Source: Bacteroidota bacterium
GTDB taxonomy: Bacteria; Bacteroidota; Bacteroidia; Palsa-948
Reading direction: 5' to 3'
NCBI GenBank assembly: GCA_016213405.1
Contig: JACRAM010000071.1
Location: 1 to 64,000 of the forward strand
Length of the DNA: 64,000 nt
Shown: one piece after another, positions 4,398 to 64,000 of the stretch
Position numbering within the stretch: the first letter of the stretch is position 1
Layout of the letters: each line of letters begins with the position of its first letter
Notes under the pieces: model-generated
What the model was told of the DNA's origin: nothing
The model's database searches: none
The model's input: the letters and a program-made list of their open reading frames with translations, nothing else
Made by a program: the position numbers and the translations under genes

Positions 4398-7300
4398 ATG
4401 AAAAATAGAGCTTATTTATTATTTTTTGCTATTTTTTCAATGATTGTATCTTTTGCCCAAAGCAATAGGATTGCTTCATTAAATCAACCCAAACCTGAAA
4501 AAATAATTTCATGGCAAAAGTTAGTTACAGATGAAGTGCCGGGACTTGGCAAACAATCTTTTCTTACTTTCCAAAATGCGCAATATGATTTAATCAATCA
4601 TTTTTTCCCTATTTATTCTGAACGGGTTGCTCTTCCTTATTATACGGTTTCTGCTGATTCCAAAATTTATAATGAAATATATCAGTTGTTAAGTGATTCG
4701 GAGAAAACGGTCGTTACCAGTTACGATAGTCAAAAGAAAAACTTTATTTCTGACGGAATAAATCCTGTTGTAACAATTTCTTTGTATAGAAAGAAACCTT
4801 ATGCTTACATTCAGTTTATTCCGATAAGAAAAAATAAAACAACCGGCAATTTCGAAAAGCTTGTTTCATTTTCTCTGCAGGTAATTCCAGATAACAGTCC
4901 CAATACAATAATTAATTCTTCTTCTCAAAAAACGTATGCTTCAAACTCTGTTCTGGCAAATGGAAAATGGTATAAAGTCGCACTTTCTGCAGATGGAATT
5001 TATAAAATGGATTATTCCTTTCTGAAGAATTTAGGATTAGATGCTAATTCAATAAATCCTCAAAACATCCGCATTTATGGAAATGGAGGAGGGCAATTAC
5101 CTTTTGCCAACTCAGGATTTCGATATGATGATTTACAGGAAAACGCTATATATGTTTCCGGGCAGGGAGACAGCAAATTTGACTCTACGGATTATATTTT
5201 ATTCTATGGTCAGTCACAGCACCGATGGAAATATAACAGCACCGATAATAAATTCCATCACAATCTAAATGTTTATTCTGACACAACTTATTATTTTATT
5301 ACAGCAGATTCAGGAATCGGAAAAAGAATTACAACACAAAATTCATTAACAACTCCTCCCACAGACACCGTTACAAGTTTTGACGATTATCAGTTTCACG
5401 AACTGGAAACCAATAATCTTCTGAAATCAGGCAGGCAATGGTTCGGAGAAACGTTTGACATTCTTACTTCTTTCAACTTCACCTTTAGTTTTGCAAATAT
5501 TGAAACCTCGTCAAAAGCTTATGTGAAAGTTGAATGTGCGGCAAGGCGCGATTCACCTGGCACTGATTTTTTATGGAGCACTGCAAACGCTTCTTCTTCT
5601 TTTAATGTAATGGGCGTTGCAACTTCAAACATTACTTCCACCTATTATAAAACAAACTCGGACACGCTTAATTTTTATCCTTCTTTATCCGGTACTATTC
5701 CTGTCACCGTTTCAAAAACAACTCCTTCTCCAGCCATTGGCTGGCTGAATTACATTGAAGTGAATGTAAGAAGACAACTTACAATGAATGGCAGTCAGAT
5801 GATTTTCAGAGATGTTAATTCATCAGACACAGGAAATGTTTCTCAATTCATTGTTTCAAACGCCAGTTCTGCCTTACAGATTTGGGAGGTTACAGATCCG
5901 ATAAATACAAAACTTCAGCAAATAAATTTTTCCGGCAACTCTCTTGATTTTACATTGGCTACAGACACACTCAGAGAATTTATCGCTTTCAACGGGCAAT
6001 CCTTCCTTATTCCAAAGCCACACGGAGAAGTTCTCAATCAGGATTTGCACGCCATGGGACAAAGCGATTTGATTATTGTTACCAATCCGCTTTTTATTGA
6101 CCAGGCAAATGCACTTGCCAATTTGCACCGAACACAGGACAGCATGACGGTTTCCGTAGCCACCACCGAGCAGACGTATAATGAGTTTTCTTCCGGTACA
6201 CAGGATGTTTGCGCTATTCGCGATTTTGTGAAAATGTTTTACGATCGCGCTGCGGATTCCACCCAACTTCCAAAGTATCTTCTCTTATTTGGAAGAGGCT
6301 CCTATAATTTGAAAACCACTATCAATAATACCAATTATGTTCCTGCTTATGAATCTCTTCTTTCTAATGACCCGACTGCATCTTATACTTCTGATGATTT
6401 TTATGGAATGCTGGATAATAATGAAGGCAACTGGGATTCCCCAACTGAACCCGATATGCTCGACATTGGCGTGGGGCGCCTGCCTGTAAAATCTGTGAGC
6501 GAAGCTGAACTTGTTGTGAATAAAATTATTAAATACACCAGCGTTCCCGGTTCTATTGAAACAGGAAATTCCTGTTCAACCGATGTATGTTACGGGTTGG
6601 GCGATTGGATAAATGTTATCACGTTTTGTGCAGATGATGAAGATAACTCAGACCACCTCAAACAGGCCGACCAGATTGCAGAAAAAATCAGGAACACTCA
6701 TAAAAATTACAACATTGATAAGATTTATCTGGACGCTTATCAACAGGTATCCACTCCGGGTGGCGAACGGTATCCTGATGCAACCGCGGCACTCAATCGA
6801 AGAATGGAAAGAGGATGTTTGATTGTCAACTATACCGGTCACGGGGGAGAACTCGGTTGGGCGCATGAACGGTTTCTTGAGGTTTATCATATCAATTCAT
6901 GGACAAACCAGTGCAAACTTCCTTTGTTTTTCACAGCCACCTGCGAATTCAGCCGTTGGGATAATCCGGAATTAATTTCTGCAGGAGAATTAACATTATT
7001 AAATCCCATCGGTGGAAGCATTGGGCTGATGTCAACCACGCGCGTGGTTTATTCAGGTCCCAACTTTACACTCAACGATAATTTTTACAACTATACTTTT
7101 AATCCTCTTCCAAATGGCGAAATGCCTCATCTCGGAGATTTGCATTTGCTTACAAAAAACAGCATGCCACCAACAGCAATCAATCAGCGCAATTTTTCTT
7201 TGCTTGCCGACCCGGCTCTTTCGCTCAACTATCCGGACTATTCTGTTGCCACCACAGACATAAATGACTCTCTGGTTAATGTATTAAAACTCGATACCGC

Positions 7301-55355: not shown

Positions 55356-57065
55356 TTACTTCATAATTTCCCTGAGAGTTTCATCCGCCTGTTTCTGATA
55401 TTTACTTTTGGAATTATTCTGAAGCGGTATCAGATTCATGCGCGCGTTCTTCGTATCATTATTTTTAATGTAGGCAAGCGATGAATACCACTGCGCGTCC
55501 TCATAGTATTTGCTGTTTTTGTTTGCAAGGATTTTGTTGAGATTCACAAGCGCTTTGTCCGTCTGACCTAAACTCATATAAGAAACCGCAGAATAAAACA
55601 ATGCTTTCTCATCATTCGGATTTTGTTTGAGCGTTTGCTCAAAATCGTTTACGGCACCACCGTAATCCTGTTTGTCATATTTAATCATTGCACTGTCAAT
55701 AGCAATTAGTCCATCTGCACTCAGAATTGTTCCGAATGTTCCACCTACTGCGACAGAATCAAGTTTTCCGTTTATTTCTGCTCCAACTTCTGTTTTTGTG
55801 GCTTTTGTTTGGGATTGTGTTTCAGGCATGGGAGCCGAAGTAGAAGTTTTCATATCATAATAACCGCTTGAAATTTTTTTCTTTGGCGATTTATCTTCTT
55901 TGCCTTTGCCTCCGGATTTTTCTTCTTTTGTTTTCTTTCCTGATTCATACGCAAGCACATCTCCTTGCCCTTCTTGAGCGCGGTTCACAGCATTGGCGTC
56001 ATTGCGTTCGCGGTCATCCATTGTTTTTTTATTGTCCTGCATAAGCGCACTTGATTTATCCTGAACAGGCTGATTAGCAGAAACCGATGAAGCTCCCGTT
56101 GCTGTTACAACTTCAGTGTTGACCGTTGTTGACTGCGGTTTTTTTGTTTCATCCGCTTTCTTGTCTTTTTCCTTCAGCGATTCAAATTCATTTTGATTTT
56201 TTGAGACTTCTTTACTTAAAAGAATGGTTTGGTCTTTTTCATCTTTAACTCCGTCTTCATCACGCGTTTGAACAGTAACTTCCGATTTGGTTGTGACATT
56301 TCCCTTAGGAGTTGTTTCTGCTTCTTTATAGCGCCAGTAATTTTTGTCTTCTTTTTCCTCGCTTTTCTTCGCAACAATCCCCTTACGAAGTTGGTCTGCA
56401 TTTTGCACAGGAACATCTTCCATCTTGTTTTCCGCCAAGCCCAAATGTTTTTCTTCAGCAATATCTTTTCCTGATTTTGCTCCTTCAACAGATGAAAAGG
56501 ATGGAGATTCCGCAGGCAACGATTTCTTTTGTGCTTCCTCTAGCGAAATATTGTTCAGCGGAGTTGGGTCCTGCGCAGTAGTAACTGGATTTTTAGAATC
56601 GGGTTCTGATTGTTCTTTTCCGGTTGTTGCCTCGTTGTCCAAATCTGCAGGAGGAGGTGAAAATTTTTCTGCAAACATTTTTTCTGCTTCTGCATTATCC
56701 ATTTCCTTCATGGACACATTGCTCTTGAAAAACCAAACGAGCCCGACAACCAGTAAGATGGAAGCCGCAACAGCCAGTTGAGTGCGGTATTGCCGGAGGA
56801 AAATTATTTTCACTTCTTTCTTTTCTTCCTTCGCGTCAATTCGTGTCTGAATTTTCTGATTGAGTTCCGAAGTGATATTAGAAATCTTTTTTTTATCATA
56901 AATCATTTGCCATCCTTCCACAGCATCTGAGCACATTTCGCAGTCAATCAAATGCTTTTCCACCTCGTGTTTTTCGGCAGAAGAAAGTTTATCAGAAATA
57001 TACTTCGTAAGCATTTCTTCTGAAAGACAATCTGTGTGTGCGAATATGTTAGTTCCCTCTTTCAC
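55356..57065 (-). CDS. anti-sigma factor with zf-HC2, one membrane segment and periplasmic TPRs
   Basis: 569 residues. N-terminal zf-HC2 type segment KHEVEKHLIDCEMC with His38, Cys42 and Cys45, which in this class binds the sigma factor. One membrane segment (about 95-113: QLAVAASILLVVGLVWFF) follows. Then a long charged, low-complexity periplasmic linker (about 130-440), and a C-terminal TPR part (NDFEQTLKQNPNDEKALFY; KALVNLNKILANK). It overlaps the sigma gene by 4 bp and is divergent from the alpha-2-macroglobulin gene. It could sense an envelope state and release the sigma factor. Confidence 0.9.
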   Translation of the reverse strand: MKEGTNIFAHTDCLSEEMLTKYISDKLSSAEKHEVEKHLIDCEMCSDAVEGWQMIYDKKKISNITSELNQKIQTRIDAKEEKKEVKIIFLRQYRTQLAVAASILLVVGLVWFFKSNVSMKEMDNAEAEKMFAEKFSPPPADLDNEATTGKEQSEPDSKNPVTTAQDPTPLNNISLEEAQKKSLPAESPSFSSVEGAKSGKDIAEEKHLGLAENKMEDVPVQNADQLRKGIVAKKSEEKEDKNYWRYKEAETTPKGNVTTKSEVTVQTRDEDGVKDEKDQTILLSKEVSKNQNEFESLKEKDKKADETKKPQSTTVNTEVVTATGASSVSANQPVQDKSSALMQDNKKTMDDRERNDANAVNRAQEGQGDVLAYESGKKTKEEKSGGKGKEDKSPKKKISSGYYDMKTSTSAPMPETQSQTKATKTEVGAEINGKLDSVAVGGTFGTILSADGLIAIDSAMIKYDKQDYGGAVNDFEQTLKQNPNDEKALFYSAVSYMSLGQTDKALVNLNKILANKNSKYYEDAQWYSSLAYIKNNDTKNARMNLIPLQNNSKSKYQKQADETLREIMK

Positions 57066-57709
57066 TTTTTATTTTTTTGCCAATTGCCTACTGATTTTGT
57101 CGTCATAAGAATTTTCAAGTTCCGTTTTCCGTTCTGTATATAACTCTTCACTTCTTTCATCGTATATCCGGTCATCTTCGCCACTTCTTCATATGATTTC
57201 TCCTGCAAATAAAAGAGTTCTATGCATATCTTTTGTCCTTCTTTCAATTCTTTAATGGCAGATTCCATCAAAGTAAGTTGTTTTTCTTTGTCTTCCCCGT
57301 TATGATGCAAACTGGATGTTAATTCCACAGGCACCCCGTCATCATTCCCGAAAGAAGTTTCATCATCCGAATGATTATCGCCAAAATCTCCGGTCAAATG
57401 CCTCGGCAGTTCAACATGAATTTTTTTACTTCGGAAATACATAAGGCAGTGATTCTTTGCCACCATGTAAAGCCAGCCCTTGAAATTTTCTACCTTATGC
57501 CTGTGCAAATCAGTCAGAATCTTTTCAAAGATCTGCATGACACCGTCCTTCGCCTCATCCTCATCTTTTAAATATTTCATACACACGCCAAACACCAGAT
57601 GCGTGTAACGCTGAAACAATTCGCCCACAATCGCATTGTCGCGTGAATCCCGAAATTTCTGAACGAGTTCGGAATCAGAGCAGTCCTTTATATTATATGA
57701 AGAAGCCAA
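57062..57709 (-). CDS. ECF-type RNA polymerase sigma factor
   Basis: 215 residues. Sigma-70 region 2: ELFQRYTHLVFGVCMKYLKD and DGVMQIFEKILTDLHRH, with the NFKGWLYMVAKNHCLMYFRS block binding the -10 DNA. A long acidic linker (about 110-150) follows, then region 4 with CIELFYLQEKSYEEVAKMTG and KSYIQNGKRNLKI. Start at 57709. The 3' end overlaps the anti-sigma gene by 4 bp. It faces a divergent alpha-2-macroglobulin gene and may control it. Confidence 0.93.
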   Translation of the reverse strand: MASSYNIKDCSDSELVQKFRDSRDNAIVGELFQRYTHLVFGVCMKYLKDEDEAKDGVMQIFEKILTDLHRHKVENFKGWLYMVAKNHCLMYFRSKKIHVELPRHLTGDFGDNHSDDETSFGNDDGVPVELTSSLHHNGEDKEKQLTLMESAIKELKEGQKICIELFYLQEKSYEEVAKMTGYTMKEVKSYIQNGKRNLKILMTTKSVGNWQKNKK

Positions 57710-57822
57710 CGGTGAATAATTCTTATGTAAATATCCAAAAAATTCCCTCTTGTTTATGGAATGCTCAAAAACCGTGCATCATGCTGTTAAATAAACCGAA
57801 ATCAACTAAAAAATCTATAACA

Positions 57823-60800
57823 ATGAAAACAAATCACACATCATCAAAATTTTCCCGAGGTGGAAAATTTTTCACAGCAATCGGAGTTTCTTCCGTAATG
57901 ATTGCATTAATGAGTTGGATGGCTCCAACCAGCTACCAGCCCACGGTTGAGAACGAATTCATCAAGGCGCTGAAGAAAAAATCAACTGAGGCGAATTCAA
58001 AAATGCCAGAAGAGCGCGTGTATCTTCAGTTCGACAAGCCGTTTTATAATCCTGGAGAAACCATTTGGTTTTCTGCGTATCTGCGCAACGGACAGAATCT
58101 AAAAGCAAGTTCGCAGAGCGATATTCTGAATGTGGAATTCATTAATCCGAAAGGAAGCGTAGAAAAAACCATTCGCCTTATTGCGAAGAACGGAAAAGCG
58201 AGCGGAGATTTTTCTTTGGGTGAAGAATCGCCAGGCGGATTATATAAAGTGAAGGCGTACACCAACTGGCAGAAAAATGATTCTTCTTTCTTTGAAAAAG
58301 AATTAACTGTTCAGGATGTTGTATTGCCTGCCATGAAAATGAAATTGGATTTTGACCGCAAGGCGTTTGGTGCGGGCGATGAAGTATCAGCAAAAATTAA
58401 AATTGAGACCAACGAGAACAAACCGCTATCTTCTTATAAAATAAAATATGTGGCACAGATTGGCGGTGAAAAAATTGTGGAAGAAGCCACCATCACCGAT
58501 TATATAGGAGAAAAACATGTGAAGTTCACACTTCCTGCGAAATTAAAAACGAATGACGGACTTCTCAATATTATGATTGATTATCAGGGACAGACCGAAT
58601 CCATTTCCCGTTCTATTCCCATTGTGCTTGGAAAAATAAATTTCTCTCTCTTCCCTGAAGGCGGAGATTTAATTCGCGGAATAGAAAGCAAAGTTGCTTT
58701 CCGTGCGCTGAATGAATTTGGAAAACCTGCTGATGTGGAAGGAATTGTATTGAACAGCAAAGGAAAAAAAGTTGCTGATTTCTCAAGTTTTCATAATGGA
58801 ATGGGCGCATTTGAAATTACTCCCGCGCTCGGAGAAAAATATACCGCAAAGATTACAAGTCCTGTTGGAATCACCGAACAATATGAATTACCTGAACCAT
58901 TAATCAGAGGTTATGTGTTGTCTGTTGAAAATGCTAACGCAAACGAAATGCTTCTGAACATCAGCACCACCGAAACCGAAGAGCTTTCTTTGGTTGGACA
59001 AGTTCGTGGAAAAATTTGTTACGCTACTGCTATTAATGCGAAAGCAGGACAAAATGAAATTCTTATTCCAGCCAGCGTTTTCCCTATGGGAGTTGCACAA
59101 TTCACACTGTTTGATTCAAAAGGAATTGAGCGCGCTGAGCGTTTGGCGTTCGTGAATAAAAATAATCAGCTGAGTGTTTCTATTTCTACGGACAAAGAAA
59201 AATATCTTCCACGCGAAAAAGTGAACATGACCATTATGGTGAAAGATGAACGCGGAATGCCTATGCCCGCTAATCTTTCTCTCAGTGTTGCAAATGATCA
59301 GTTGCTTGCTTTCGCAGATGACAAACAAGGAAATATTCTTTCCAAACTTCTTTTGGAATACGACATCAAAGATAAAATTGAAGAACCGAATTTTTATTTT
59401 GATGCGAAGGAACCTAAATCAGACAAAGCGCTTGACTATGTGATGATGACCAGCGGATGGAGAAGATTTACCTGGGAAAAAGTTATGGCGGATGAATTGC
59501 CTGCCATTACTTACACCGCAGAAAAAGCAATCGTATCCGGAACTGTGCTGGACGCTTACACAGGAAAACCCATTGCAAATGCGAAGTTGAAAATCAGCGC
59601 TGACGGTTCAACTGTTGAAACAGATGAGAACGGAAAATTCACAGTGAAAAAAATGGATCTGACAGAAGCTAAAAATCTTTTCGTGAACGCAAGCGGTTAC
59701 AATCAACAGCAATTCAATGTTTATGATTACAACCAGAATCTTGCGTACTATCTCTATCCTAATTACAACAATAATTATTACGGTACTACTTCAACAACCA
59801 CTAAATCTAAAAGTGGCGGATGGTGGGCAGTTCCGCAAAGCGCGCCAGCCGGAGGAGCAGGGAACAAACATTTAGAAGTTCAGGAAGATATGATGATGGT
59901 TGCAAATGAAATGCAGTTAGGTGCAATTGATATAGCAGAAAAAGCGCCACAAAAAGGCGAGCATTTGAAAAAAGATAAAGCACCTGTTGCTGATAAATCA
60001 AAAGTAAAGGACGAAGAAGGAAAGAAAAATCAAAACAATGAAGTAGTGGCTAAGATCGAAAAAGAAAAGAAAGGAAAGATTGCTATGGATGACGCACGCG
60101 ATCAAAAATTCCGCGCGAACGATGGAGATTTTGAAAACAATAGAAAAGTTGTAGCGCAGAATGCCGTGGTGTATTACCGCGCAAAGCAATTCTCAGCGCC
60201 TGTTTACAAGCAGGAAGAATATCCAGAACAAAGAACAGATTTCCGCTCTACGATTTACTGGAACCCAAATGTTCAGGTGGATAATTCAGGAAAAGCGGAA
60301 GTATCCTTTTACAATTCTGATGACATTACATCATTCAAAACAACTGTTGAAGGAATCGGAAATGACGGAAGCATCGGCAGAACTGAAAAAACTTTCTTCA
60401 CACAAATGCCTTTCTCCATGACAACAAAAATTCCTACAGAGGTGGTAACAGAAGATGTGATTTCCATTCCTCTTACGCTGAAAAATAATACTTCGGCTTC
60501 TGTAACAGGATTGCTGAACATTACCGCACCAAAAGGTTTGGAGTTAATCACAAACATTACACAATTGCAAACACTTCAGGCAGGAAAAGCAAAAACAATT
60601 TATTTGGAATACAGAGTGAAAGAAGAAATTTCAGAGGGAAATTTTGAAATCGCTTTCAAAGCGTGTGGAATGAAAGATGCGTTCGCACAAAATCTGAAAG
60701 TGATTCCGAAAGGATTTCCGGTCACTGCTTCTTTCTCTGGCGACAAAGGCGAATCAGAATATGAAGTGGATTTGAGAAATGTGGTGAAAGGTTCCATTAA

Positions 60801-62304
60801 AGTAAAACTGACTGCGTTTCCTTCCGTTGTAAGTGATTTGCTTACAGGCGTGGATGGAATTCTTCGCGAACCGGGTGGATGTTTTGAGCAGACTTCGATG
60901 AGCAGTTATCCGAATGCAATGGTGATGGATTATCTGAAAACATCTGACACAAAAGATGAAAAACTTCTTGCCTACGCAGGAGGAATGCTGGACAGAGGTT
61001 ACAAACGCCTCACCACTTTTGAAACTTCGCAGAAAGGTTATGAGTGGTTCGGACAAGCGCCAGGACATCAAGGTCTGACCGCATACGGACTCATGCAGTT
61101 CAACGATCTGAAAAAAGTTTACGAGGGCGTTGACCAGAAAATGATTGACCGCACTGCTGATTGGATTCTCTCGCAGAAAGACGGCAAAGGCGGGTTCAAG
61201 CGTGGTGGAAATGCGTATCACAATTTCGGAATGATAAGCGAAGATGTGATGAATGGTTACATTGTGTATGCGATGGCTGAAGCAGGATATGGAGGTGAGT
61301 TGAAAAAAGAAGCAGAAGCTTCTTACGAAACTGCGATGAAAAATAAAGATCCGTATCAGCTGGCTATGAGTGCGAACGCTCTTTACAAACTGAATGACAA
61401 AAACGCAGACAAGGTGATGGAAGAACTTTTATCTAAACAAAATAAAGACGGAAGTTTTGACGGCACTACTCACTCCATCACCTATTCAACGGGCAACTCT
61501 TTAACGATTGAAACCACTTCACTTGCCATCATGGCGATGTTGAAAGATCCGAATCGTCCTACGCAAGCGACCAACAAAGCAATCGAATCACTTGTGAAAA
61601 GCAGAAGCGGATACGGTTCATTCGGAAATACACAAGGAACAGTTCTCGCGCTGAAAGCATTGACCGAATATGCGAAAGCAAACAAGTCCACACCTGAAGA
61701 CGGAACAGTTCAATTTTATGTGGATGGAAAACAAGTTGCTGAACAATCTTATAAAGCAGGAGAGAAAGACGCAATTGTGCTGGATGGTTTGGAACAGTAT
61801 ATAAAGGAAGGAAAGCACACGCTTAAAGTGAAATACGCGAATGCAAAAAATCCTCTGCCACATTCAGTTGCTGTAAGTTGGAGCACTTCGCTTCCAAACA
61901 GCGATACAGAATGCAAAGTGGATTTGCAAACTAAATTGGCAAGCAAGTCGGCAAATCAAGGTGAAACAATTCGTCTCACTGCAGAAATAAAAAACAAAAC
62001 TTCTGATGAATTGCCAAGCCCGATTGCGATTATCGGAATTCCAGCAGGACTTTCTTTACAACCTTGGCAGTTAAAAGAAATGCAGGAGAAAAAAATGTTT
62101 GACTACTATGAAGTAATCGGAAGCAACCTCATCCTCTACTACCGCGGAATGGGTCCGAAAGAAGAAAAGGTGATCAACCTTGATCTGAAAGCGGATATCC
62201 CTGGCGAGTATGAAGCCCCTGCATCCTCTGCTTATCTCTATTACACCAATGAATACAAAACATGGGATGCCGGTGGCAAGGTAGTTGTTAAAAAGCAAGC
62301 ATAA
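57823..62304 (+). CDS. alpha-2-macroglobulin family protein with thioester motif
   Basis: 1,493 residues from MKTNHTSS, with an N-terminal membrane segment and no lipobox. Domain order: MG-type domains (about 50-560; RVYLQFDKPFYNPGETIWFS), a carboxypeptidase-regulatory-like domain (570-660; SGTVLDAYTGKPIANAK), and a low-complexity charged linker (about 690-790). An A2M domain follows (DFRSTIYWNPNV), then a thioester domain with GGCFEQTS (CxEQ; thioester Cys1020), an all-helical toroid and a C-terminal receptor-like part. Bacterial A2Ms trap proteases in the periplasm. The frame opens 60 codons upstream, over the sigma gene; I reject that start. Divergent from sigma/anti-sigma. Confidence 0.92.
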   Translation: MKTNHTSSKFSRGGKFFTAIGVSSVMIALMSWMAPTSYQPTVENEFIKALKKKSTEANSKMPEERVYLQFDKPFYNPGETIWFSAYLRNGQNLKASSQSDILNVEFINPKGSVEKTIRLIAKNGKASGDFSLGEESPGGLYKVKAYTNWQKNDSSFFEKELTVQDVVLPAMKMKLDFDRKAFGAGDEVSAKIKIETNENKPLSSYKIKYVAQIGGEKIVEEATITDYIGEKHVKFTLPAKLKTNDGLLNIMIDYQGQTESISRSIPIVLGKINFSLFPEGGDLIRGIESKVAFRALNEFGKPADVEGIVLNSKGKKVADFSSFHNGMGAFEITPALGEKYTAKITSPVGITEQYELPEPLIRGYVLSVENANANEMLLNISTTETEELSLVGQVRGKICYATAINAKAGQNEILIPASVFPMGVAQFTLFDSKGIERAERLAFVNKNNQLSVSISTDKEKYLPREKVNMTIMVKDERGMPMPANLSLSVANDQLLAFADDKQGNILSKLLLEYDIKDKIEEPNFYFDAKEPKSDKALDYVMMTSGWRRFTWEKVMADELPAITYTAEKAIVSGTVLDAYTGKPIANAKLKISADGSTVETDENGKFTVKKMDLTEAKNLFVNASGYNQQQFNVYDYNQNLAYYLYPNYNNNYYGTTSTTTKSKSGGWWAVPQSAPAGGAGNKHLEVQEDMMMVANEMQLGAIDIAEKAPQKGEHLKKDKAPVADKSKVKDEEGKKNQNNEVVAKIEKEKKGKIAMDDARDQKFRANDGDFENNRKVVAQNAVVYYRAKQFSAPVYKQEEYPEQRTDFRSTIYWNPNVQVDNSGKAEVSFYNSDDITSFKTTVEGIGNDGSIGRTEKTFFTQMPFSMTTKIPTEVVTEDVISIPLTLKNNTSASVTGLLNITAPKGLELITNITQLQTLQAGKAKTIYLEYRVKEEISEGNFEIAFKACGMKDAFAQNLKVIPKGFPVTASFSGDKGESEYEVDLRNVVKGSIKVKLTAFPSVVSDLLTGVDGILREPGGCFEQTSMSSYPNAMVMDYLKTSDTKDEKLLAYAGGMLDRGYKRLTTFETSQKGYEWFGQAPGHQGLTAYGLMQFNDLKKVYEGVDQKMIDRTADWILSQKDGKGGFKRGGNAYHNFGMISEDVMNGYIVYAMAEAGYGGELKKEAEASYETAMKNKDPYQLAMSANALYKLNDKNADKVMEELLSKQNKDGSFDGTTHSITYSTGNSLTIETTSLAIMAMLKDPNRPTQATNKAIESLVKSRSGYGSFGNTQGTVLALKALTEYAKANKSTPEDGTVQFYVDGKQVAEQSYKAGEKDAIVLDGLEQYIKEGKHTLKVKYANAKNPLPHSVAVSWSTSLPNSDTECKVDLQTKLASKSANQGETIRLTAEIKNKTSDELPSPIAIIGIPAGLSLQPWQLKEMQEKKMFDYYEVIGSNLILYYRGMGPKEEKVINLDLKADIPGEYEAPASSAYLYYTNEYKTWDAGGKVVVKKQA

Positions 62305-62309
62305 GAAAC

Positions 62310-62412
62310 CAAACCCCAACCCTGAAGGGAGTAAATACAAACTCCCTTTAGGAAATGGGAAAAAATAAAAAAACAATGAAAACACTTTTTTCTCCCTTTA
62401 GGGTCGGGGCAA
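62310..62412. repeat. pair of CTCCCTTTAGG-type repeats around the next start codon
   Basis: AACCCCAACCCTGAAGGGAG at 62312-62331 and ACTCCCTTTAGG at 62340-62351, then a second TTTCTCCCTTTAGGGTCGGG at 62388-62407. The first pair forms a hairpin upstream of the 62376 gene; the last copy is inside its coding sequence and encodes SPFRVG. Confidence 0.75.
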
Positions 62413-62894
62413 AACTTCTTCTCACCGCACTCGCACTTCCTATAGGAATCTTTGCACAGGGACCAAACACGAACATTAATCCGCCTCCGCAAATACAAAA
62501 TGTAAATTATATTAATCTAATTGATGAAAACAATAATTCACTCGGAAATGCTTCCGGAAAAATAAATGATGACATAAATCCAATTCAAACAAATATTGCG
62601 ATTCAACAACAGGCAAATCCTCCAGCGCAGGTTCAGCAACAATCATCAGGAAGTATATTCGGTTCTGAAGACAATAATCAGTCAAAAACTACCGGATGCA
62701 ATGACTGTGATGCGGTAAAGCAAGCTATTAAAGCGTCTCACGCTTCATCTGGCGGGAATTACCACAAAAAATCTTTCGGCATGAAGCGATGGTCAAGGAC
62801 TTTTTCGGGAAAGATGAACATGAAAATGAAAAAAATGTTCACGAAAAAGTACAAAGCGAAAACTTCTTACGCTCTCTGCTTCAATTGGCATTAA
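62376..62894 (+). CDS. small secreted protein with highly basic C-terminus
   Basis: 172 residues (ATG at 62376; 62355 is an alternative). Signal peptide MKTLFSPFRVGAKLLLTALA with cleavage near IFAQ; its SPFRVG is repeat-coded. The mature part is Asn/Gln-rich (NTNINPPPQIQNVNYINL; IQQQANPPAQVQQQS), then a CxxC pair in TGCNDCDAV, and a tail of Lys, Met and Arg (FSGKMNMKMKKMFTKKYKAK) ending FNWH. I do not recognise it. Its position just after the alpha-2-macroglobulin gene suggests co-expression; binding to anionic polymer is a guess. Confidence 0.7.
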   Translation: MKTLFSPFRVGAKLLLTALALPIGIFAQGPNTNINPPPQIQNVNYINLIDENNNSLGNASGKINDDINPIQTNIAIQQQANPPAQVQQQSSGSIFGSEDNNQSKTTGCNDCDAVKQAIKASHASSGGNYHKKSFGMKRWSRTFSGKMNMKMKKMFTKKYKAKTSYALCFNWH

Positions 62895-63013: not shown

Positions 63014-64000
63014 ATGAAGCGATGCGTATATATATGTATAACCGCGGCTGGAATGTTTCTTTCAGAGATTTCTTCCGCCCAATCTGACCCAATTTCAAAA
63101 GACAGTTCCGCAATAATTTTTGCGGATGATCCAATCGCTTCCATGCTGGATAGCTTGTCGCGCGTGATGTATTTTGACAAATCAACGCTTGAGATAACTC
63201 CGAACAAATATCATTTCCCGATTGATTCTGTTCCTAATTATTCTGATTCGATTTACGCCATGCGCCTTGCGAAACTGGATGCTGAATCTCCGTTTGATCT
63301 GATTTATAACAACGCAGTGAGAAGTTACATTGAACTCTACGCGGTTAGAAAACGAGCCATGGTATCGCGCATGCTGGGAATGTCAAAAATGTATTTTCCT
63401 ATCATTGAAGAAATTCTTGACAGGAAAAAAATTCCGCTTGAGCTGAAATATCTTGCCATTGTTGAATCCGCCTTAAACCCCATGGCGCGCTCACGCGCTG
63501 GGGCAGTGGGCTTGTGGCAATTCATGTACGGAACAGGAAAAATGCAGGGATTGAAAATTTCTTCTTACTTAGATGAACGTTCTGATCCTTACAAATCCAC
63601 AGAAGCTGCCTGCGACTATTTACAATTTCTCTATGATATGTTTGGCGACTGGCAGATGGTACTTGCTGCCTACAATGGCGGACCCGGCACCGTGAGTAAA
63701 GCCATCAGACGCTCGGGCGGAAAAACAACGTATTGGGAAATCCGACCTTATCTTCCTAGAGAAACACAGGGATATGTTCCCGCTTTCATTGCGGTGAATT
63801 ATGTGATGACGCACTGGGAAGAACATAATTTATATCCCGCTGTTCCGAAAATTACGTATGCGGATATTGACACCGTAAATATTAAGGAAGAACTTTCTTT
63901 CCAGCAGATCGCAAAAGTGCTGAACATGTCGGTGGATGAAATCCGGTATTTAAATCCCTGCTACAAGCGCGGAACTGTTCCGCACTCAGAAGATAATTGT
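63014..64000 (+). CDS. mltD: membrane-bound lytic murein transglycosylase (MltD type), 3' end cut by the window
   Basis: At least 329 residues; no stop before the window end. Signal peptide ending near SSAQS. The SLT domain has the catalytic Glu in LKYLAIVESALNPMARS, then SRAGAVGLWQFMYGTGKM, and the NGGPGTV loop in LAAYNGGPGTVSKAI. ADIDTVNIKEELSFQQIAKV...DEIRYLNP is the start of a LysM-type peptidoglycan-binding repeat. It cleaves glycan strands in peptidoglycan. The start at 63014 is the first ATG giving a signal peptide. Confidence 0.93.
   Translation, partial: MKRCVYICITAAGMFLSEISSAQSDPISKDSSAIIFADDPIASMLDSLSRVMYFDKSTLEITPNKYHFPIDSVPNYSDSIYAMRLAKLDAESPFDLIYNNAVRSYIELYAVRKRAMVSRMLGMSKMYFPIIEEILDRKKIPLELKYLAIVESALNPMARSRAGAVGLWQFMYGTGKMQGLKISSYLDERSDPYKSTEAACDYLQFLYDMFGDWQMVLAAYNGGPGTVSKAIRRSGGKTTYWEIRPYLPRETQGYVPAFIAVNYVMTHWEEHNLYPAVPKITYADIDTVNIKEELSFQQIAKVLNMSVDEIRYLNPCYKRGTVPHSEDNC

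Follow-up and report, generated by a model that had tools for sequence, protein, structure and literature searches.

A predicted ECF sigma factor envelope regulon of Bacteroidia with an alpha-2-macroglobulin operon as target and a putative promoter copy inside the sigma factor gene

Do the divergently transcribed genes of a sigma factor and an alpha-2-macroglobulin (A2M) in a Bacteroidota genome belong to one regulatory unit? The question is raised by positions 55356-62894 of the window, by which we mean the whole stretch of 64,000 nucleotides analyzed here (contig JACRAM010000071.1, positions 1 to 64,000). The original prediction had read this region as an envelope-defence regulon made up of a sigma factor, its membrane anti-sigma factor, an A2M, a small basic secreted protein and a lytic transglycosylase, and all five genes were found at the locus by open reading frames (ORFs) and domain searches. 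From sequence comparison we consider it probable that this locus forms the core of an extracytoplasmic function (ECF) sigma factor envelope regulon that is wide-spread in Bacteroidia, with the A2M operon as a target and with feedback on the anti-sigma factor from an embedded promoter. The features concerned are:

55356..57065, minus strand: anti-sigma factor P0003 (TPR_19 above the Pfam cut-off, zf-HC2 just below)
57062..57709, minus strand: ECF-type sigma factor P0002, 215 aa (Pfam Sigma70_r2 1e-10, Sigma70_r4_2 1e-9; TIGR02937 2e-23)
57304..57331, minus strand: intragenic copy of the sigma-type promoter, CCTGTGGAATTAACATCCAGTTTGCATC, inside the sigma factor gene, predicted to transcribe the anti-sigma factor gene (position weight matrix score 13.4)
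57753..57780, plus strand: ECF-type promoter of A2M, predicted from a conserved motif, with -35 element TTTATGGAAT, 13-nt spacer and -10 element GCATC (57776-57780)
57823..62304, plus strand: A2M P0001, 1493 aa, recognized by its domains and thioester motif
62355..62894, plus strand: small basic protein, secreted partner of A2M (has a signal sequence, the CxxC motif CNDCD, a tail rich in K/R and CFNWH at the C-terminus)

The sigma and anti-sigma factor genes share 4 bp and are transcribed away from A2M, leaving a gap of about 113 bp between sigma factor gene and A2M. P0002 is short and has regions 2 and 4 but no region 3, as is characteristic of ECF (group IV) sigma factors. For A2M the mechanical ORF start at 57643 was rejected because it would overlap with the sigma factor gene; the most likely start is the ATG at 57823, which also agrees with the promoter and with the relatives.

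A comparison of distant lineages showed that TTATGGAAT and GCATC, at a fixed distance, are common to the regions between the sigma factor gene and A2M. A position weight matrix (PWM) was built from 56 A2M-upstream sites, leaving out the genus of the window (consensus T-T-T-A-T-G-G-A-A-T, 13 nt, G-C-A-T-C-T), and 520 nt upstream of 89 A2M loci from Bacteroidia were scanned with a threshold of at least 12 bits. Sense sites were present at 73 of the 89 loci, while the antisense strand and the in-gene control both gave 0/89. The sites of the 89 loci are partly those used in training, and the fair part of the comparison consists of the zero controls and of the held-out genus, in which the A2M-upstream sites reached 18.6-26 bits. 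The ATG follows the end of the -10 element at a median distance of 38 nt, and several of the loci missed by the PWM turned out to be variants with a spacer longer or shorter by 1 nt. The element is also kept upstream of A2M where the sigma factor gene is not adjacent (e.g. loci L048, L049 and L052); in genome G005, in which the sigma factor gene lies elsewhere, it has a 12-nt spacer. With its GGAA-type -35, short -10 and fixed spacing, TATGGAAT-N13-GCATC has the form of an ECF promoter, presumably recognized by P0002. A pattern scan of the window's own genome allowing one mismatch gave 76 matches versus 10 for the reversed control, and a search of the window alone allowing two mismatches was no better than shuffles. 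Because of this background, only sites supported by the PWM and by their context were used. In the open-access literature searched we found no report of the motif, of the partner protein or of an A2M under sigma factor control in Bacteroidota, although ECF-group motif tables outside this literature may exist.

The protein behind this promoter has a signal sequence followed by MG2, CarboxypepD_reg-like, A2M/MG7 and TED (3e-31) domains. A low-complexity, bait-like region extends over about residues 649-810; this segment is disordered in the AlphaFold model (pLDDT 66, pTM 0.47), and column identity is 0.28-0.32 at residues 651-750 versus mostly 0.6-0.8 elsewhere. Pfam A2M_BRD was not matched in the protein. 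A TED with GCxEQ, MG domains and a bait region that evolves fast place it among the thioester-type A2Ms. The best Foldseek matches of the model were animal A2M, A2ML1, CD109 and TEP1, and in profile comparison, too, the animal proteins TEP1/A2M/CD109 (1e-42) were closer than YfhM of E. coli (1e-10). It shares the thioester TED, the MG domains, export and the presumed protease trap with the YfhM-type A2Ms that are paired with PbpC (E. coli, Salmonella; PDB 4rtd, 4u48, 5a42), but differs from them by its CarboxypepD_reg-like insert, by GCFEQ and by the lack of a lipobox (the signal region of P0001 contains no Cys) and of an adjacent PbpC. The remark of the original prediction that no PbpC-type protein is seen here is thus right for the locus; such a protein sits beside the other A2M of the same genome, which is of the YfhM type (CVEQ, 1889 aa) and lies between a SIMPL protein and the PbpC-type penicillin-binding protein (G000:C125:146500-166000, locus L078, 4650-13886).

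Judging from the domains and by analogy, we regard A2M and its partner as a putative protease trap of the periplasm or the surface. There is a smaller but real chance that A2M is instead a structural or receptor-like envelope protein which has kept the thioester fold and does not trap proteases, an arrangement compatible with the proposed regulation. The CarboxypepD_reg-like insert would fit such a protein, as would its predicted regulon companions (TonB/ExbD, plug-like and vWA proteins) and a distant relative (locus L054, genome G007, contig C20) carrying TonB_C at the bait position (residues 764-839, Pfam 2e-10). Yet the P-x-GCFEQ thioester motif is found in 84 of 84 A2M relatives, and such invariance is expected of a trap, as is a variable, disordered and charged stretch at the position of the bait.

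The proposed link of the small basic protein to A2M was supported and strengthened: a gene coding for a basic tail and a Cys near the C-terminus directly follows A2M at 52 of the 74 loci with room for it, versus 1 of 370 other small ORFs in the control. All 52 partners contain CxC or CxxC, which was not part of the search, and the deeper A2M clades lack the partner. The small protein had no match in Pfam or NCBIfam, and AlphaFold gave no usable model (pLDDT 52). One may speculate that the Lys/Arg-rich tail makes the partner a target of the thioester, an electrostatic tether or a stabilizer of A2M.

Which sigma factor would read the element? The exact pattern TTTATGGAATN13GCATC occurs at 46 sites in 60 relatives plus the window's own genome, the reversed pattern at none. 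Sites were found in 22 of 31 genomes with a close P0002-type sigma factor and in 1 of 23 genomes without one (Fisher p=7e-7, counting genus g1 once and ignoring the relatedness of the genomes). It is unlikely, in our estimate, that a different sigma factor reads TTTATGGAAT-N13-GCATC, or that the element is the operator of a transcription factor, and that P0002-type sigma factors merely co-occur with it. Each genome does contain several ECF sigma factors, the co-occurrence is correlative and partly phylogenetic, and the single exact site in genome G054 is not accompanied by a close relative of P0002. Against this, a layout of two boxes at fixed spacing, with GGAAT at -35 and the start codon following after about 38 nt, is typical of an ECF promoter, and sites are essentially absent from genomes that contain many other ECF sigma factors but lack a close relative of P0002. 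Furthermore, the element is built into the P0002-type sigma factor gene itself in 34 of 38 cases, and where a sigma factor gene lacks the internal copy, a site can lie upstream instead (60 nt before the gene in L062, before the preceding gene in L070). Promoter conservation, co-occurrence with the sigma factor family and the copy inside the sigma factor gene together argue for sigma factor and A2M as one regulatory unit, as originally proposed.

The internal copy was seen when the A2M-derived PWM was applied to the sigma loci: strong sense-strand sites recur inside the sigma factor gene, in the linker between region 2 and region 4. In the 34 genes the copy lies at a homologous position and always in the same frame. 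Synonymous codons were resampled over whole genes with local codon usage and the best site scores compared. A better best site than expected (p<0.05) was obtained in 26 of 36 sigma factor genes versus 6 of 115 control genes of similar size, with a combined p about 1e-28 for the sigma factor genes that counts related genomes as independent. The embedded copy is thus under selection at the level of the DNA. The simplest reading is that the copy is a sigma-dependent promoter for the following anti-sigma factor gene, which would constitute a negative feedback. It seems quite unlikely that the sequence is conserved because the protein requires the peptide (ME....LH) which it encodes. The M/V-E and H residues are indeed highly conserved, and in L059, L065 and L103 the synonymous bias of the site is not significant. 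However, the residues vary at three codons where the promoter bases do not: the third base of codon 0 is T in 33/34 genes (F, V, L, P, I, A and others), the third base of codon 7 is G in 32/34 (L, M, V, E, S, Q) and the first base of codon 9 is C in 34/34 (L, H, P, Q). Third positions neighboring the motif bases are mixed. The synonymous test also speaks against the peptide, as does the fact that the motif had been learned solely from regions upstream of A2M. An internal start giving a sigma factor fragment with region 4 only was considered and rejected, no conserved start codon being seen.

A promoter placed in this manner would have a precedent. In Corynebacterium glutamicum PrshA lies within sigH and has been proposed to shut down the response (PMC3489674); there an ECF sigma factor drives the anti-sigma factor gene from a promoter within its own coding region. 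SigH-RshA differs in phylum and regulon, has a GGAA/GTT-type promoter and a redox-type anti-sigma factor (PMC3489674), whereas the embedded promoter predicted here is kept across many families of Bacteroidia and copies the external promoter of the regulon.

The anti-sigma factor (55356-57065) has a ZAS-like N-terminus (HLIDCEMC), one hydrophobic segment, a charged linker of about 330 residues and TPRs at 459-519. zf-HC2 scored 19.6 bits versus a Pfam cut-off of 22.2, and the NCBIfam anti-sigma model matched below its cut-off (1e-7). An N-terminal H-x3-C-x2-C domain, a single transmembrane segment and a gene beside that of the sigma factor are the marks of Class I (ZAS) membrane anti-sigma factors, and all of them are seen here; several relatives lack the ZAS Cys. 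Relatives sit directly after the sigma factor gene. The linker, which had been called unusually long, is long but stands at one end of a variable range (whole proteins of relatives have about 350-570 aa). Among 16 relatives the periplasmic part contains TPR in about half, TonB_C in 4 and a CarboxypepD_reg-like domain in 1. A single periplasmic sensor for the family was rejected, since TPR is replaced by TonB_C or a CarboxypepD_reg-like domain in relatives. At L060 (3146-5680) a VIT-vWA protein with an inter-alpha-trypsin-inhibitor-like domain and a C-terminal TonB_C is encoded divergently beside the sigma factor.

Other sites are mostly located 40-120 nt before genes for exported proteins of recurring families. 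DUF4139/DUF4140 (MuiA-like) proteins follow at five loci (L061, L064, L193, L196, L210), CarboxypepD_reg-vWA/YfbK-like proteins at four (L077, L185, L194, L200), ExbD at three (L053, L187, L192), DUF4349 at two (L198, L207) and SIMPL at one (L202). In four families a stand-alone SQHop/TED-like toroid protein lies directly downstream of a site (L204, L211, L214, L215); its N-terminus resembles GCVFxTxFGEES...KTPEKV, and it may be a free-standing relative of the thioester domain. A second A2M type follows sites at L180, L190 and L206, the last with MG2 and bait-region domains, and YfhM-type look-alike A2Ms have sites in G006, G049 and G055 (Pfam checked on the one in G049). The YfhM-type A2M of the window's own genome was rejected as a target, no site being found. 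In that genome the better sites lie before the A2M operon and before the genes for a BamB-like beta-propeller protein (C55), ARPP-1 (C108) and a T9SS-sorted protein (C113). Two weak sites (16 and 10 bits) were seen on contig C105 (L159, 2030 and 6110) near two tonB-like genes, one of them inside an ExbD-like gene. Because most predicted targets are exported, an envelope response is the natural reading, in agreement with the envelope character proposed initially. ECF control of envelope genes in Bacteroidota is known from other systems. The Flavobacterium psychrophilum SM6 regulon likewise combines an ECF sigma/anti-sigma pair with envelope and secretion genes, but has a CGT -10 box instead of TATGGAAT-N13-GCATC, T9SS targets and no reported A2M (PMC9723704). 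In Porphyromonas gingivalis PorXY-SigP an ECF sigma factor also controls envelope genes, here under a two-component system and with T9SS targets (PMC4800418).

Four species of the genus (G000, G003, G004, G006) have the sigma and anti-sigma factor genes divergent from A2M, and the same sigma-A2M order occurs outside it in G049, which belongs to another family, and at L103, L151, L143 and L145. L145 has an unrelated ORF call between the two genes, and a long array of CTCTGAGAAG-type repeats was noticed there at about 6400-6800. In G005, G011, G013, G023, G025, G032, G042 and G047 the sigma/anti-sigma pair is located away from A2M, and in the complete genome G001 of the same genus A2M and the small gene are cleanly absent between transglycosylase and sigma factor (L044, contig C10). 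A genome scan with the A2M alignment yielded 80 loci, of which 7 kb flanks were inspected. In the A2M tree the divergent arrangement occurs in one large clade and in two distant single lineages, which we read as an old arrangement that was broken up in most lineages. That the genes are chance or ancestral neighbors, unrelated housekeeping genes without any regulation, is highly improbable: A2M and sigma factor lie apart in most genomes and the flanking genes (cysS, M28 peptidase, SLT) are ordinary and kept only within the genus, but the promoter travels with A2M and not with the neighborhood, and a close sigma factor relative lies within about 7 kb of A2M at 8 of the 80 loci (L080, L110, L103, L143, L145, L151, L105, L155) versus about 0.4% expected per genome for a random position (our arithmetic, from 14 kb in a genome of about 3.5 Mb).

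The SLT, M28 peptidase and cysS genes were rejected as parts of the system, being neighbors in the genus only and lacking a sigma-type promoter. The first of these is the lytic transglycosylase, whose assignment to the regulon was not supported; it stays in G001 without A2M and is not found next to A2M outside the genus:

63014..64000, plus strand: SLT lytic transglycosylase, running past the window end; LysM domains follow (locus L178)

About 3.3 kb past the window end lies a gene for a gliding-adhesin-like protein of 2536 aa, which contains 21 SprB repeats and carries a CHU_C signal for the T9SS (G000:C71:67330-74940; L178, 3330-10940). The host genome (G000) comprises 3.65 Mb in 127 contigs, of which the window is contig C71, and its genus mates are environmental Bacteroidetes metagenome-assembled genomes, mostly from groundwater.

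Several observations weigh against a sigma factor regulon of this kind. Most genomes lack the sigma-A2M adjacency, and the loss of gene order that had been named as refuting the original prediction is found in most genomes. The promoter stays on A2M, however, and the lost adjacency therefore does not refute the regulatory link. No clear site was found at some A2M relatives (e.g. L053 in G047, L150, L158 and the distant L054), so the control is not universal. The embedded site of the window is among the weaker ones (13.4 versus a training median of 31), and the lone site in G054 and the counting of related genomes as independent in the combined p-values have to be added. Finally, both the release of the sigma factor by an envelope signal and the protease trap are suggested by analogy.

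Taken together, the initial interpretation is partly supported, and its idea of co-regulation is largely borne out by the comparison of genomes. We propose that at rest the membrane anti-sigma factor would hold the sigma factor, as in related families, and that an envelope signal would release it. RNA polymerase with the sigma factor would then start at TTTATGGAAT-N13-GCATC promoters, one of which would drive the operon of the secreted thioester A2M and its small basic Cys-containing partner. The same holoenzyme would start at the copy inside the sigma factor gene, and the extra anti-sigma factor thus produced would shut off the response. More tentatively, within a class-wide regulon the sigma-borne promoter could be a dedicated feedback switch and the top conserved output a two-part trap of TEP-like A2M and Lys-rich, Cys-bearing partner, in which the partner may be captured by the thioester, tether it or reset it.

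The conserved code of the promoter, the copy of it that is embedded in the sigma factor gene and the family of A2M partners appear to be new. The embedded copy would be a widely conserved case of a promoter overlapping with protein-coding sequence, in which synonymous recoding can separate both functions, and a bacterial A2M would be tied to a specific regulator and to a testable partner protein. Overall, the data suggest a wide-spread cell-envelope response with a built-in off-switch, a candidate counterpart in Bacteroidia of the proteobacterial sigma-E envelope response. Its promoter code is readable, and the regulon should therefore be predictable in any genome of the class.

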